A DNA stretch of 57,361 nt. Source: Polyangium sp. 15x6 (GTDB lineage: Bacteria > Myxococcota_A > Polyangia > Polyangiales > Polyangiaceae). Positions 1 to 4,167 of the stretch are shown piece by piece (within the stretch, counting starts at the first letter, position 1; each line of letters opens with the position of its first letter). The notes beneath the pieces are model-generated. The model worked only from the letters and a program-made list of their open reading frames with translations, was not told the DNA's origin and did no database searches. The translations under genes were made by a program, and so were the position numbers. Location of the stretch: the NCBI RefSeq assembly GCF_029960785.1, contig NZ_JASBQE010000076.1, positions 1 through 57,361 on the forward strand. Direction: 5' to 3'.

Positions 1-2713
1 GCGCCGCCGCGCCGTCCGCGCCCGCCGCCGCGCCGTCCGCCCCGCCGGCCTTGGCCTGCGCGCCCGCGCCGGCTTGCGCGCCGTCGCCGCCCTTGCGCAC
101 GTCCTGGGCCTCTTTCATCGATTGCATCGCGGTCTTGCCGGCGTCCTTGACGATCTCCTTCGCCTTTTCGAGGCTCTTCGTCAGGTTCTCCGCCGACGCC
201 TTGATCGCGTCGCCCGTCGAATTCGCGGCCTCCACGACCTCCGCGGCCGCGGCCTGCGCGGCCTGCGCCGCCTGCGTGCAGGTGTCCGTCGCCTCCTTGG
301 CGACCGCCGTCATCTTCTCCTTCGCCGCGGCAATGACGTTCTTGGCCTTCTCGCCCTCCGTCCGCACCTCGCCCATCTGCTGGTTGAGGACGTCCGTCAA
401 TGTCTTCGCCGCGCCGTCGAACCCGGCCGCGCTCATCGCGGCCGCCGCCTGCTCCGCCGCATTGTTCACGGCCTCGGCCGCATTCACGCCCGCCGTCACC
501 GCGGCCTGCGCCGCATTCGCCGCCGACGCGATCATCCCTTCGAGGCCGCCCGACACCGCCAGATTGATCGCGCCGGCCGCGTCGAGCCCCGCGCCCGCAG
601 GGACGATGAGCGCGAGCGAGCCCTGCACCGCGCCGAAATCGCCGCGGATGCCGCCGAGGACCCCGTACGCCGCTTTTTTGATCTCCGACAGCGTCGTCCG
701 CGCCTTCAGGAGGATGTCGTCCTTCGTCGCATTGGCGAGCCCCTTGGCCAGCGTGATTTCACGCTCGACGGCCATCCGCGCGACCTCTTCGAGCTTGATG
801 AGCCGCGCCGGGATGTCGTTGACGAGCGCGTTCGTCTTCTCCTCGAACGCGGCGCCGAGATCCTTGAAGCGCTGGATCGAGGTCTCCACCGTCCTGCGAA
901 TGGAGGCGACGAGCTCGAGGACCTGGGTCTCGATGAGGTCCTTCATCTCCGAGGCGAGCTGCTTGAACCGCGCCTCGGCCGCCTTGATCGCCCCCATGAT
1001 GTCGGCGAGCGTCTTCTCGTAGAACGTCTTGCCCGCAAGGGCGAGCGCGTCGGCCGCGGCCTTGATCTGCTTCTTGCAGTTCTCGAGGTAATCGGGGATC
1101 TTCTTCGTGATCGCGTCGACGAGCGTCTTTTGCAGCTCCTCGAACGTCTTCTTGACCGCCTCGCCCTTGTCCTTGATGGACGACGCGATGCTCGTCGCGA
1201 TCTGGACGGCCTGCATCGCGAGCTTCGGCCCGAGCGCGGCGATCTGCGCGACGACCTTGATGCCCTGCGCCTGGATCTTGGGCTTCAGCAGGGTCGCCTG
1301 CATCTCGAAGTCCTTGATCAGCTTCTCCCCTTGGGCCTTCGTCTTGGTCTCGATCTGCTTGATCGCGGCCTCGCCCTTGGCCCGGATCTTGGGGATGACC
1401 GAGGTGTCCTCGGAATAACCAGCGTTGATGAAGTCGGCGAGCGCGTCGTCGTGGCCCTTCGCGCCCTCGGCCACGAGGTCCCGGACAATCTTGTCGGCGT
1501 CGAGGTTCAAGTCGGCCTGGAGCGCCTTGATCGAGGCGTTCATCTTGCCGCCGAGCTCCTCGACCGAGCCGATGACGGACTCCTCCATGGTCTGGAGGAT
1601 CTTCTTGCATTCGGTCTCGAACGTGCCGAGCAGCTCGTTCGCCGCCTTGCGGACGTCCTCGAGCGTGCCGAGGGTCAGGTCGCGGATCTGTTCGAGCAGC
1701 TTGTCGAGGAGGCGATCGAGGTCGGCCTTGATCCCCCGCACGAGCGCGAAGCCGTCGGCGAGGAGTTTGTCGACGGTGCTGGTGATCGTGAGGAGCGCCT
1801 GGTTGAGCAGCTCCGCGGTGCGCGCGACGAGCCCATGCGCGAGGTTCGAGATCTCGTCGATGGTCTTCTGGATCGCGTCATTGACCTTCGCGAGGATGTC
1901 CTGCGCGCACTGGTTGATGCGCGCGGGGACTTCGCCGATCGCGGCGCGCACGTCGCCGATCGTCTGCATGATCGTGTCGTCGGTCTGCTTGACCAGCGAC
2001 TTGAGCGTCTCGCGCGCCTGCTCGATGGAGTCCTTCGTGGCACTGCGAAGCTCGTCGACGACGGCGTCGATGTTCGCCGACATCTCGATCTTGGCGCCGT
2101 CGTGATCGGGCACCTTCGCGAGCGCGGCCTCGAACTTGCCGCGCACGTCGTCGCCAATCGCCTGGATCTTGCCGTCGATCTGGCCTTCGAGATCCCCGAG
2201 CTTCTGGTCGACGGTGTCAGCCTGCGTCTTGACCGCATCGAGGACCTTCTTGGCCTGGTCCTCGCCGAGCTGTCCGATCTCGTCGATCTTGCCCTTCGCC
2301 TGGTCAGCCGCGTTTTGAATCTGATCCTGGGCCGTCTTGACGAGCGCGTCTTTTTGCGATTCGAGCTTGCCCTCGACCTCGTCGACGAGTCCGTCGAGTT
2401 TGTCCTTGGCCGTCTTGATCGCGTCCTCGCCCATCTTCTTGAGCTCGGGCGTGATCCCTTTGAGCTTGCCCTCGGTCTCCTTGATGGCCGTGTCGATGCC
2501 GGAGGAGATGCCGTTCTTGGTCTCGTAGAGGGCCTTGTTGAGCTTGAGGATCTGCTCTTCGGCCTTGCTGATGATCTGGTTCGTGGAGTCACGGACGGTA
2601 GAGACGCCCTTCGTGACCGTGACCTCGGCCTTGTCGATCTGCTCCGTGGCGAACTTCCCGAGCTTGCTCGGAATGCTCTCCGTGGCGCCCTGGCTCTCTT
2701 CTGCAGTCGTCAT
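1..2713 (-). CDS. Very long Lys/Glu/Ala-rich helical (coiled-coil-like) protein, 3' end beyond window
   Basis: The frame stays open from an ATG at 2713 to the left edge, at least 904 codons with no stop in the window. A GAGG lies six bases upstream of the ATG. The product begins MTTAEESQGATESIPSK and is nearly all amphipathic helix, with recurring K/E/D/I/L/A patterns resembling apolipoprotein- or LEA-type helices. No signal peptide is seen. A more hydrophobic Ala/Gly-rich stretch lies about residues 660-720, and the visible end is low-complexity GADGAAA repeats. It lies downstream of tssG on the same strand, separated by a hairpin-rich 0.4 kb spacer, so it may or may not be co-transcribed. 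I do not recognise a family. A structural, cargo or length-determining role linked to the T6SS is only a guess. Codon use is as in the neighbours. Confidence 0.85.
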   Translation of the reverse strand, partial: MTTAEESQGATESIPSKLGKFATEQIDKAEVTVTKGVSTVRDSTNQIISKAEEQILKLNKALYETKNGISSGIDTAIKETEGKLKGITPELKKMGEDAIKTAKDKLDGLVDEVEGKLESQKDALVKTAQDQIQNAADQAKGKIDEIGQLGEDQAKKVLDAVKTQADTVDQKLGDLEGQIDGKIQAIGDDVRGKFEAALAKVPDHDGAKIEMSANIDAVVDELRSATKDSIEQARETLKSLVKQTDDTIMQTIGDVRAAIGEVPARINQCAQDILAKVNDAIQKTIDEISNLAHGLVARTAELLNQALLTITSTVDKLLADGFALVRGIKADLDRLLDKLLEQIRDLTLGTLEDVRKAANELLGTFETECKKILQTMEESVIGSVEELGGKMNASIKALQADLNLDADKIVRDLVAEGAKGHDDALADFINAGYSEDTSVIPKIRAKGEAAIKQIETKTKAQGEKLIKDFEMQATLLKPKIQAQGIKVVAQIAALGPKLAMQAVQIATSIASSIKDKGEAVKKTFEELQKTLVDAITKKIPDYLENCKKQIKAAADALALAGKTFYEKTLADIMGAIKAAEARFKQLASEMKDLIETQVLELVASIRRTVETSIQRFKDLGAAFEEKTNALVNDIPARLIKLEEVARMAVEREITLAKGLANATKDDILLKARTTLSEIKKAAYGVLGGIRGDFGAVQGSLALIVPAGAGLDAAGAINLAVSGGLEGMIASAANAAQAAVTAGVNAAEAVNNAAEQAAAAMSAAGFDGAAKTLTDVLNQQMGEVRTEGEKAKNVIAAAKEKMTAVAKEATDTCTQAAQAAQAAAAEVVEAANSTGDAIKASAENLTKSLEKAKEIVKDAGKTAMQSMKEAQDVRKGGDGAQAGAGAQAKAGGADGAAAGADGAAA

Positions 2714-2860
2714 AAGGCCTCAGCAGAACGATATCCCGGCGCGCAGACGCTTGACAAGCATCACTCCTTGGCTTGGGCCGCCGCGCCGGGGCGCCGCCCC
2801 GGACCCCGCGGGGGCTATTCGCCCCTCGACCCGAACCAGGGCAAGCCCTGGACTCGTGGT

Positions 2861-2889
2861 GGAAGAACTGCGCGATGCGCAGTTCTTCC
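2861..2889. repeat. 13-bp perfect hairpin, left central arm of the element
   Basis: GGAAGAACTGCGC and GCGCAGTTCTTCC form a perfect 13-bp stem around a GAT loop. Its inner core GAACTGCGC-NNN-GCGCAGTTC is shared with the hairpin at 2987-3017. There is no T-run, so it is not a classical intrinsic terminator, but it would be a very stable RNA structure. Confidence 0.85.
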
Positions 2890-2986
2890 AACGGGCCGGT
2901 GCAAGACCACGGGCAGCGTTGCCAGTCGAAATGGCAACGTGGCTGTCTTGGTTGGCAGGGTCGTTCCTGGTCTTGACTCGGCCTGT

Positions 2987-3017
2987 TCGATGAACTGCGC
3001 GGAGCGCAGTTCATCGA
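2987..3017. repeat. 14-bp perfect hairpin, right central arm of the element
   Basis: TCGATGAACTGCGC and GCGCAGTTCATCGA pair perfectly over 14 bp around a GGA loop. The nine inner stem bases equal those of the hairpin at 2861-2889 while the outer bases differ. This suggests two related copies whose stems have changed by compensating substitutions. Confidence 0.85.
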
Positions 3018-3111
3018 GCCCGGGTCCAGCGCTTGCGCTGGTCCGGGTCCAGGGGCGGATAGCCCCGGTGGGGCCTGGGGCGAAGCCCCAGCGAGGCGCC
3101 CGCGGCTTCGC

Positions 3112-4167
3112 CTACGTGGCCTCGCCGAGGCCTTTCCGAATGGCCGCACGCGACAAACGTACCTCGCGCACCCTGCCGCCGTGCTTGTTCACATTCCCGA
3201 GCCAGGCGATCTGGCCGAGGAGCGCGCACGTGGCGCGGCCGAGCTCGATCCGCGGCGCCTCGCCTTCGGCCAGCACGAGGATGAGGCTGAAGTGGAAGCG
3301 TGCGCCTGCATAAAAACGGACGAGGGAGCAGAGGGGGCGGAGCGCGTCGCCGTCGGGGAGGAATCGCAGGAATTCATCGAGCTTCATGGGGCCGATGCGC
3401 AGATCGAACGTGGATTCCTGATCCCAGAAGCGCCCTCCGAGGCATGCGTTGCGGCCGAGCGCGCGGTTCTGGCCGGATCGGCCGATCGCCGTGCGATCCG
3501 TCTCCTCGATGGGGTGAAAGGCGCCCGTCAGCGGGATGGGCTCGATGGGGACGCCGAAATGCCGGCGGAGAATGGCGACCAGACCTTCGAGCGAGCGTGA
3601 CTCGTTCGAGAGGTTCGCGGCGTGTTCGAGCAGGGCGCGATCCTGGACGGCGAGGCGGCCTTCGAGCGCCTGAAAGCCGAGGCCGAGGAGCGCGAAGAGG
3701 TGCCGCGCGGCGCCGTCTTTCTCGGGCGAGGAGACGCCCAGGCCGACGCGATGGCCCTTGCGGATGCGATAGGCGAACGAGACGAGACGGTGGTTGAAGA
3801 TGTCGAGGAAATCGCGCGCTGCGGTGTCGCCGCGGACGGCGCGCATGTAAATCGACTCGACGATCGGCGGCGGCAGCGGGCCGAGGGCGCCGCCGAGGCC
3901 GAGGAAGTTCACTTGCATCTTCGCGGGCTCGCCCTCGCGGTGCGGCGAGCGAATGCGCGCGACGTCGGTCTCGGGGAAGGCGAGCGCGATGTTCCCGGCG
4001 AATCGCACGGACTCGCGCGAGGGATCGGAGCCCTCGCCGACGGGGACGGCGTCGCCTTCCCGAAAGCGTTCGAGGAGGGAGACGGCCTGATAAAAATCGA
4101 AGGCGTGTCCCTCGTCGAAGAGCCAGGCCTCTACAGAAGGGCTCTTTCGCCAGCCGTGGGCGGCCAT
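3112..4167 (-). CDS. tssG: T6SS baseplate protein TssG
   Basis: The 351-residue product has the TssG/VasB/ImpH character: an N-terminal segment with AFDFYQAVSLLERF, then FAGNIALAFPETDV, QVNFLGLGGALGPLPPPIVE (residues about 88-107) and the mid-region GRFWDQESTFDLRIGP. TssG pairs with TssF in the wedge of the T6SS baseplate in the cytoplasm. The chosen ATG (4167) overlaps the end of tssF by 37 bases in another frame, implying translational coupling. It is the last recognisable T6SS gene of the operon; the stop lies at the edge of the hairpin element. The much longer open frame in the same phase, reaching 6162, runs antisense-like through tssF and was discarded. Confidence 0.92.
   Translation of the reverse strand: MAAHGWRKSPSVEAWLFDEGHAFDFYQAVSLLERFREGDAVPVGEGSDPSRESVRFAGNIALAFPETDVARIRSPHREGEPAKMQVNFLGLGGALGPLPPPIVESIYMRAVRGDTAARDFLDIFNHRLVSFAYRIRKGHRVGLGVSSPEKDGAARHLFALLGLGFQALEGRLAVQDRALLEHAANLSNESRSLEGLVAILRRHFGVPIEPIPLTGAFHPIEETDRTAIGRSGQNRALGRNACLGGRFWDQESTFDLRIGPMKLDEFLRFLPDGDALRPLCSLVRFYAGARFHFSLILVLAEGEAPRIELGRATCALLGQIAWLGNVNKHGGRVREVRLSRAAIRKGLGEAT

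Follow-up and report, generated by a model that had tools for sequence, protein, structure and literature searches.

A mirror-ordered hairpin array downstream of tssG in Polyangium sp. 15x6: probably an old copy of a Tn5/IS50-type MITE, possibly kept as a two-way mRNA 3'-end module

Introduction

In Polyangium sp. 15x6, the gap behind the type VI secretion gene tssG is filled by a dense array of small hairpins, which raises the question of what kind of element this is, how it came to lie there, and whether it plays a role at the ends of the genes it follows. The window analysed here is the whole stretch of 57,361 nucleotides of contig NZ_JASBQE010000076.1 (assembly GCF_029960785.1). An earlier note on this DNA had described the array as nine hairpins in mirror order and had named a REP-type (Y1) transposase as its possible mover. 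According to our analysis, the feature is probably an old copy of a MITE of the IS4-family Tn5/IS50 type, old copies of which may be kept as two-way modules at mRNA 3' ends.

Organization of the hairpin array

The array (2786-3091) consists of small perfect hairpins, which are arranged in mirror order about a central one (Table 1). Seven are palindromes with arms of 7-14 bp (H1, H4 to H8, and H11), and three are weaker stems with 4-bp arms (H2 and H3, which overlap each other, and H9), read by eye, the pairing of their family counterparts being scored across other copies. The array of the earlier note is thus real; its total of nine hinges on the 4-bp stems. Both pairs of arms that it quoted (those of H4 and H8) are exact, and the whole element does form an imperfect inverted repeat, its halves (2776-2924 vs. 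2953-3101) being 77% complementary. When the family consensus core was shuffled 200 times by mononucleotides, palindromes with arms of at least 7 bp numbered 0.48 on average and 3 at most. The predicted RNA fold of the stretch reaches -242 kcal/mol (z = -19), and none of 100 shuffles was as low. Rfam gave no match at gathering score (three weak microRNA matches lay far below it), and a known Rfam RNA was accordingly rejected.

The conserved core extends from about 2780 to 3100. Complete copies elsewhere continue on both sides to transposon ends, both of which the window copy has lost, as a comparison of the flanks of 41 copies indicates.

Table 1. Positions of the element, its hairpins and the neighbouring features in the window
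Feature	Position	Strand	Basis
Whole element, family orientation	2780-3100	+	39 other scored copies 88-93% identical; flanks of 41 copies
H1, hairpin, arms 8 bp in window	2786-2802	.	palindrome scan and family pairing
H2, small palindrome CCCCGCGGGG	2804-2813	.	by eye; family pairing in 396/396 cells
H3, small stem GGGG..CCCC, overlapping H2	2811-2825	.	by eye; family pairing
H4, hairpin CCAGGGC/GCCCTGG; in other copies landing site of the partner insertion sequence	2836-2851	.	
H5, hairpin, 14-bp arms, loop GAT; family maximum of compensatory changes	2860-2890	.	
H6, central hairpin, arms 8 bp, loop 7; element centre variable across family	2917-2939	.	
H7, hairpin, 14-bp arms, loop GGA; nearly invariant, basis of copy counts	2987-3017	.	
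H8, hairpin CCAGCGC/GCGCTGG	3026-3041	.	palindrome scan and family pairing
H9, small stem GGGG..CCCC	3052-3066	.	by eye; family pairing
H11, hairpin, arms 7 bp	3075-3091	.	palindrome scan and family pairing
tssG, type VI secretion operon; name from earlier note and gene order	3112-4167	-	stop codon 12 bp from element
Sigma-70-like promoter of next gene (TTGTCA, 18, TATCGT)	2728-2757	-	same gap in all six genus genomes (by eye)
Next gene downstream (long helical gene of earlier note)	2-2713	-	gene call; start region conserved

Copies in the genus Polyangium

A search for further copies and their boundaries, as the earlier note had proposed, found many copies throughout the genus and boundaries that can be defined by the transposon ends CTGAGCATTGGTCTCATCT. 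The genomes compared are drafts. The DNA search yielded 428 candidates in the window's own genome, which comprises 13.4 Mb in 275 contigs, and all 40 that were scored (that of the window and 39 others of 88-93% identity) are copies; across 59 genomes, copies were found in six, all of them Polyangium. The H7 stem with at most one mismatch, a count that includes partial elements, occurs 283 times in the own genome; the counts for the other five genomes of the genus are 226, 177, 126, 110 and 24. It is absent from 177 other genomes of the order, and the reversed control pattern likewise gave none. When as many as three mismatches are allowed, so that H5 is counted as well, the number in the own genome rises to 428. 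The family is known here from the soil-dwelling genus Polyangium only, and no description of it was met in the literature searched, most subscription journals lying outside that search.

Complete copies (those with both ends readable) measure 317-371 bp between the ends CTGAGCATTGGTCTCATCT; they are short, numerous and without coding capacity, as is characteristic of MITEs. Nineteen nearly full-length copies found via their ends are 71-91% identical to the consensus and carry 4-7 palindromes with arms of at least 7 bp. The end motif CTGAGCATTGGTCTC (at most one mismatch) is present at 41 sites in the own genome, compared with none for the reversed control, and 29 of the 30 sites fetched are in contact with a whole or partial element. 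A long element with the same ends was rejected for this genome, no end pair being more than 371 bp apart among these 30 sites within their 3-kb loci. The exceptional site (L212, 1435-1515) consists of two transposon ends at a distance of 81 bp, which enclose no element core, and is perhaps a further shortened copy.

Concerning target duplications, 17 rows had both ends readable; as two are repeats, they represent 15 distinct copies. The flanking 9-mers are identical in three of these and one base off in four, and they match at six positions or fewer in the remaining eight, which show no clear duplication; 255 offset controls never exceeded 6 of 9. Sites without the element were found in all seven relatives examined at two loci, L213 (relatives from four genomes of five) and L081 (the three relatives that reach the site, out of four matches in five genomes). 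When the flanks are projected onto these empty sites, they overlap by 9 bp in six cases and by 8 bp in one, as expected where the target duplication is absent. The element has thus been mobile in the past and bears the marks of Tn5-type movement. Hairpins as the target of the element itself were considered and rejected, a clear hairpin being present at only one of seven of its own insertion targets. The copy of L213 (1501-1862), which is complete and has an 8-of-9 duplication, differs from most copies in lying directly ahead of a start codon.

The partner insertion sequence

When four genomes of the genus were searched for DDE_Tnp_1 and the resulting loci scanned for the ends of the element, an insertion sequence of 1503-1504 bp was found which has these ends in common with it. 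Five complete copies exist (one in genome G002, four in G005), three of them with identical 9-bp duplications, one with 8 of 9 and one with none. The transposase (475 aa) comprises the domains Tnp_DNA_bind, Dimer_Tnp_Tn5 and DDE_Tnp_1, scores above the cut-off of the NCBIfam IS4 family model, and is homologous to the Tn5 transposase of solved structure (E 8e-31), with which the DREAD and Y-2-R-3-E-6-K stretches align. Since the insertion sequence combines the same ends with a Tn5-like transposase, the element is almost certainly a Tn5-type MITE, which the partner transposase presumably moves, or moved, in trans.

The organization found here is most similar to that of the Tn5/IS50 group (IS4 family): the partner transposase is homologous and has the Tn5 dimerisation and DNA-binding domains, duplications are of 9 bp, and the ends start with CTGA, about 19 bp being common to element and insertion sequence. 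Tn5 ends are likewise 19 bp long. Despite this similarity, the element carries no transposase gene, and its interior mirror array of hairpins is unrelated to the insertion sequence, with which it shares only about the outer 19 bp.

Intact transposase genes exist within the genus in G002 and G005, and fragments in G000, G001 and G003 (several of those of G003 at contig ends). G004 gave no transposase match at threshold, and no intact partner transposase was found in the window's own genome, the one with the highest copy number. The transposase family extends beyond the range of the element: of 108 genomes of the taxonomic family, 21 carry a match, and 16 of these belong to other genera. There, long matches are up to 47% identical and short pieces up to 57%. 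If the explanation offered here is right, myxobacteria have a Tn5-type transposase together with its MITE family.

REP elements are linked to RAYT (Y1) transposases, and such a transposase had been the mover suspected in the earlier note. Like the REP/BIME/REPIN group, the Polyangium element is built of small palindromes in mirror order and reaches a high copy number. It also shares its location after genes and between convergent genes, as well as its use as an insertion-sequence target, with what two sources say of REPs, namely their placement after genes (PMC3733652) and their role as targets of insertion (PMC1525189). However, it is a single unit of 317-371 bp with terminal inverted repeats, 9-bp target duplications and a DDE instead of a Y1 partner. 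The suspicion was not borne out: a search of the own genome for a Y1 gene flanked by palindromes gave a single Y1_Tnp match, whose 3.2-kb locus does not contain the element, and mobilisation by Y1/RAYT was rejected. That the element is a REP/BIME-type repeat moved by such a transposase is, in our view, extremely improbable. The Y1 match itself (L110) adjoins an ORF that, as read from its translation, resembles a tyrosine integrase.

Four of the five complete insertion sequences are nested in copies of the element (L249, L250, L254 and L262), three of them in H4, each with identical 9-bp duplications, and one in the right half (L254), without duplication. Although L250 and L262 hit the same 9-mer, the sequences further out bear no relation to each other, so that they represent separate insertions. 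The hairpins might therefore serve the transposon as a decoy landing site for the partner insertion sequence, by which genes would be spared, and REP sequences are described as insertion targets (PMC1525189). This explanation is nevertheless unlikely: it is based on five copies from two genomes, it accounts for H4 but not for the conservation of all stems, and the element's own targets show a clear hairpin in one case out of seven.

Conservation of the stems

Pairing was compared among 99 aligned copies from six genomes (41 from the own genome, 58 from relatives), the set comprising the best-scoring copies with four partial matches dropped. H4 was excluded from the main count because about 13 of the 99 rows look misaligned there. 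In the 57 local pairs that remain, 99.71% of the cells are paired; 97 cells show double changes, 9 are one-sided and 16 broken. Column shuffles reach a mean of 97.37% (maximum 97.61%) with 19 double changes. Inclusion of H4 lowers the paired cells to 98.55%, and sliding the partners by one or two bases lowers pairing to 37-47%. Among the nine variable local pairs, double changes account for 92 cells, one-sided changes for 8 and broken pairs for 6; 14 further Watson-Crick types occur. As the double changes are partly common to subfamilies, independent events are fewer than cells. Departures from the majority base amount to 2.4% in stem columns and 18.2% in the other columns of the core.

For the large inverted repeat, the picture is different. 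The folded consensus has 123 long-range pairs, and these are paired in 89.84% of cells (shuffles: 89.85%). Double changes number 130 (115 in shuffles) and broken cells 1184, and the repeat was rejected as a conserved unit. The earlier proposal that each small stem is maintained, as compensating changes imply, is therefore upheld, but the long repeat pairs no better than shuffled columns. The outcome named in advance as speaking against that proposal, i.e., no other copies and stems that are not conserved, did not occur.

Covarying stems would also suit a family of structured non-coding RNA genes that was spread by transposition and acts in trans. We regard this as very unlikely, as the element follows genes in both orientations (in tandem gaps, 20 copies with and 15 against the direction of the genes), no promoter was found inside the element region of the window, and no Rfam family matches at gathering score.

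Concerning the loops, H5 has GAT, TCC or GGT in 112 of 130 oriented copies, and H7 has the complements ATC, GGA or ACC in 118 of 138. The loops are thus polarised, and frequent inversion of single hairpins was rejected; possible inversions are limited to six GAT and two TCC at H7 and one ATC at H5. The loops belong to few types which are common to both arms and to several genomes, and this suggests exchange.

Genomic placement and loss of the transposon ends

Gene calls were made by an uncurated script based on codon usage, which assigned a gap type to 125 of the 132 distinct full copies (7 unclassed). Convergent gaps hold 79 of these copies, tandem gaps 35 and divergent gaps 11, compared with 144 convergent pairs among all 577 gene pairs of the fetched loci, element-bearing pairs included. 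Of the 250 neighbouring gene ends, 193 are 3' ends; their median distance to the core is 18 bp, and 162 of them lie within 50 bp of it. For the 57 gene starts, the median is 168 bp. Both transposon ends are lost in 99 of the 125 copies, one is kept in 18 and both in 8, the ends being mostly either nearly intact or at chance level. Copies without ends are convergent in 64 of 99 cases, and those with both ends are distributed over three convergent, three tandem and two divergent gaps, a sample (n = 8) too small for a test. The stems have thus been under constraint or repair as single units after the transposon ends were lost. Hairpins that stay intact while the ends disappear indicate that the element may have been put to use after genes.

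The main rival to such a role is a functionless, harmless MITE, which lands anywhere and of which only the copies in harmless gaps after genes survive, its stems being rewritten by conversion between copies or by quasi-palindrome correction, i.e., hairpin-templated copying. The distribution of the two-ended copies over all three types of gap, and the copy of L213 just before a start codon, are what one would see if insertion had no bias and the distribution were shaped by loss. The few loop types common to both arms and several genomes suggest the exchange that conversion between copies would bring about, and placement after genes could reflect mere survival in harmless gaps, which counts against a 3'-end role. 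On the other hand, the same copies lose their ends yet keep their stems paired, stop codon and core have come to lie a median of 18 bp apart through trimming but the core is kept, and any correction acting locally on palindromes would need to leave out the long arms, whose pairing does not exceed that of shuffles. We consider a functionless MITE a real, if not a likely, possibility.

Fifteen orthologous pairs with both sites filled (three of which share one site) were drawn from loci fetched because they hold elements. The two elements have the same orientation in seven pairs and opposite orientations in eight; one of the seven, L188/L129, is unclear (72.3% vs. 72.9%). Except for L099/L103, identity within the pairs is near that of unrelated copies. 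Candidate explanations are independent insertions into one and the same gap and an exchange of elements on site.

The gap after tssG and a putative role at mRNA 3' ends

In the window, the element is situated between tssG and the promoter of the next gene. The same gap contains the element in opposite orientation in G002, a different C/T-rich hairpin, CCCCTC...GAGGGG (identified by eye), in G003, G004 and G005 (L270, L271 and L273), and neither of them in G001. With contents that differ in this way among relatives, the gap looks like a slot for different hairpins or none. The G002 element (L272, 2543-2912) shows, by eye, a tandem duplication of its centre.

An intrinsic terminator, i.e., a G+C-rich hairpin followed by a T run, was found nowhere in 2400-3400, where shuffles average 1.1, and no stem is followed by a U-tract, so that the element is not a textbook intrinsic terminator. 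As a U-tract is lacking, hairpin-only termination, Rho-linked termination and a block to 3' exonucleases all stand as candidate routes.

A useful role at 3' ends in a good share of the copies is offered as putative, and we hold it quite possible without leaning towards it. Under the explanation that we prefer overall, the Tn5-type transposase of the partner would have acted in trans and inserted the element across the genus; copies have accumulated just behind stop codons, most of all in convergent gaps; and the mirror-symmetric hairpin array, transcribed from either side, would make or protect the mRNA 3' end and limit read-through. In the window, the copy would keep the type VI secretion operon apart from the next gene's promoter. 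Against this explanation weigh the eight two-ended copies without a clear duplication and the failure to find an intact partner transposase in the own genome.

More tentatively, the family may represent a mirror-symmetric hairpin module borne by a transposon, a portable two-way transcript 3' end that was spread genus-wide by a Tn5-type transposase, settled after genes and was stripped of its ends, its single stems coming under selection. The 3' ends of many convergent gene pairs of Polyangium would then derive from one mobile family, and the gaps could also be filled by unrelated hairpin repeats. We treat this wider proposal as doubtful but worth stating: if true, gene-end signals have arisen from a transposable element over and over, in parallel, in genomes that are large and G+C-rich.

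MITE-like intergenic repeats that fold when transcribed are familiar from other bacteria as NEMIS/Correia, ERIC and BOX. By description, the Polyangium element resembles them as a MITE-like repeat between genes; it is set apart from them, again by description, by its many separate covarying stems and by its strong excess at convergent gene ends. A hairpin resembling the C/T-rich CCCCTC...GAGGGG was also met at another locus (L029), where a complete copy of the element is inserted in its loop.
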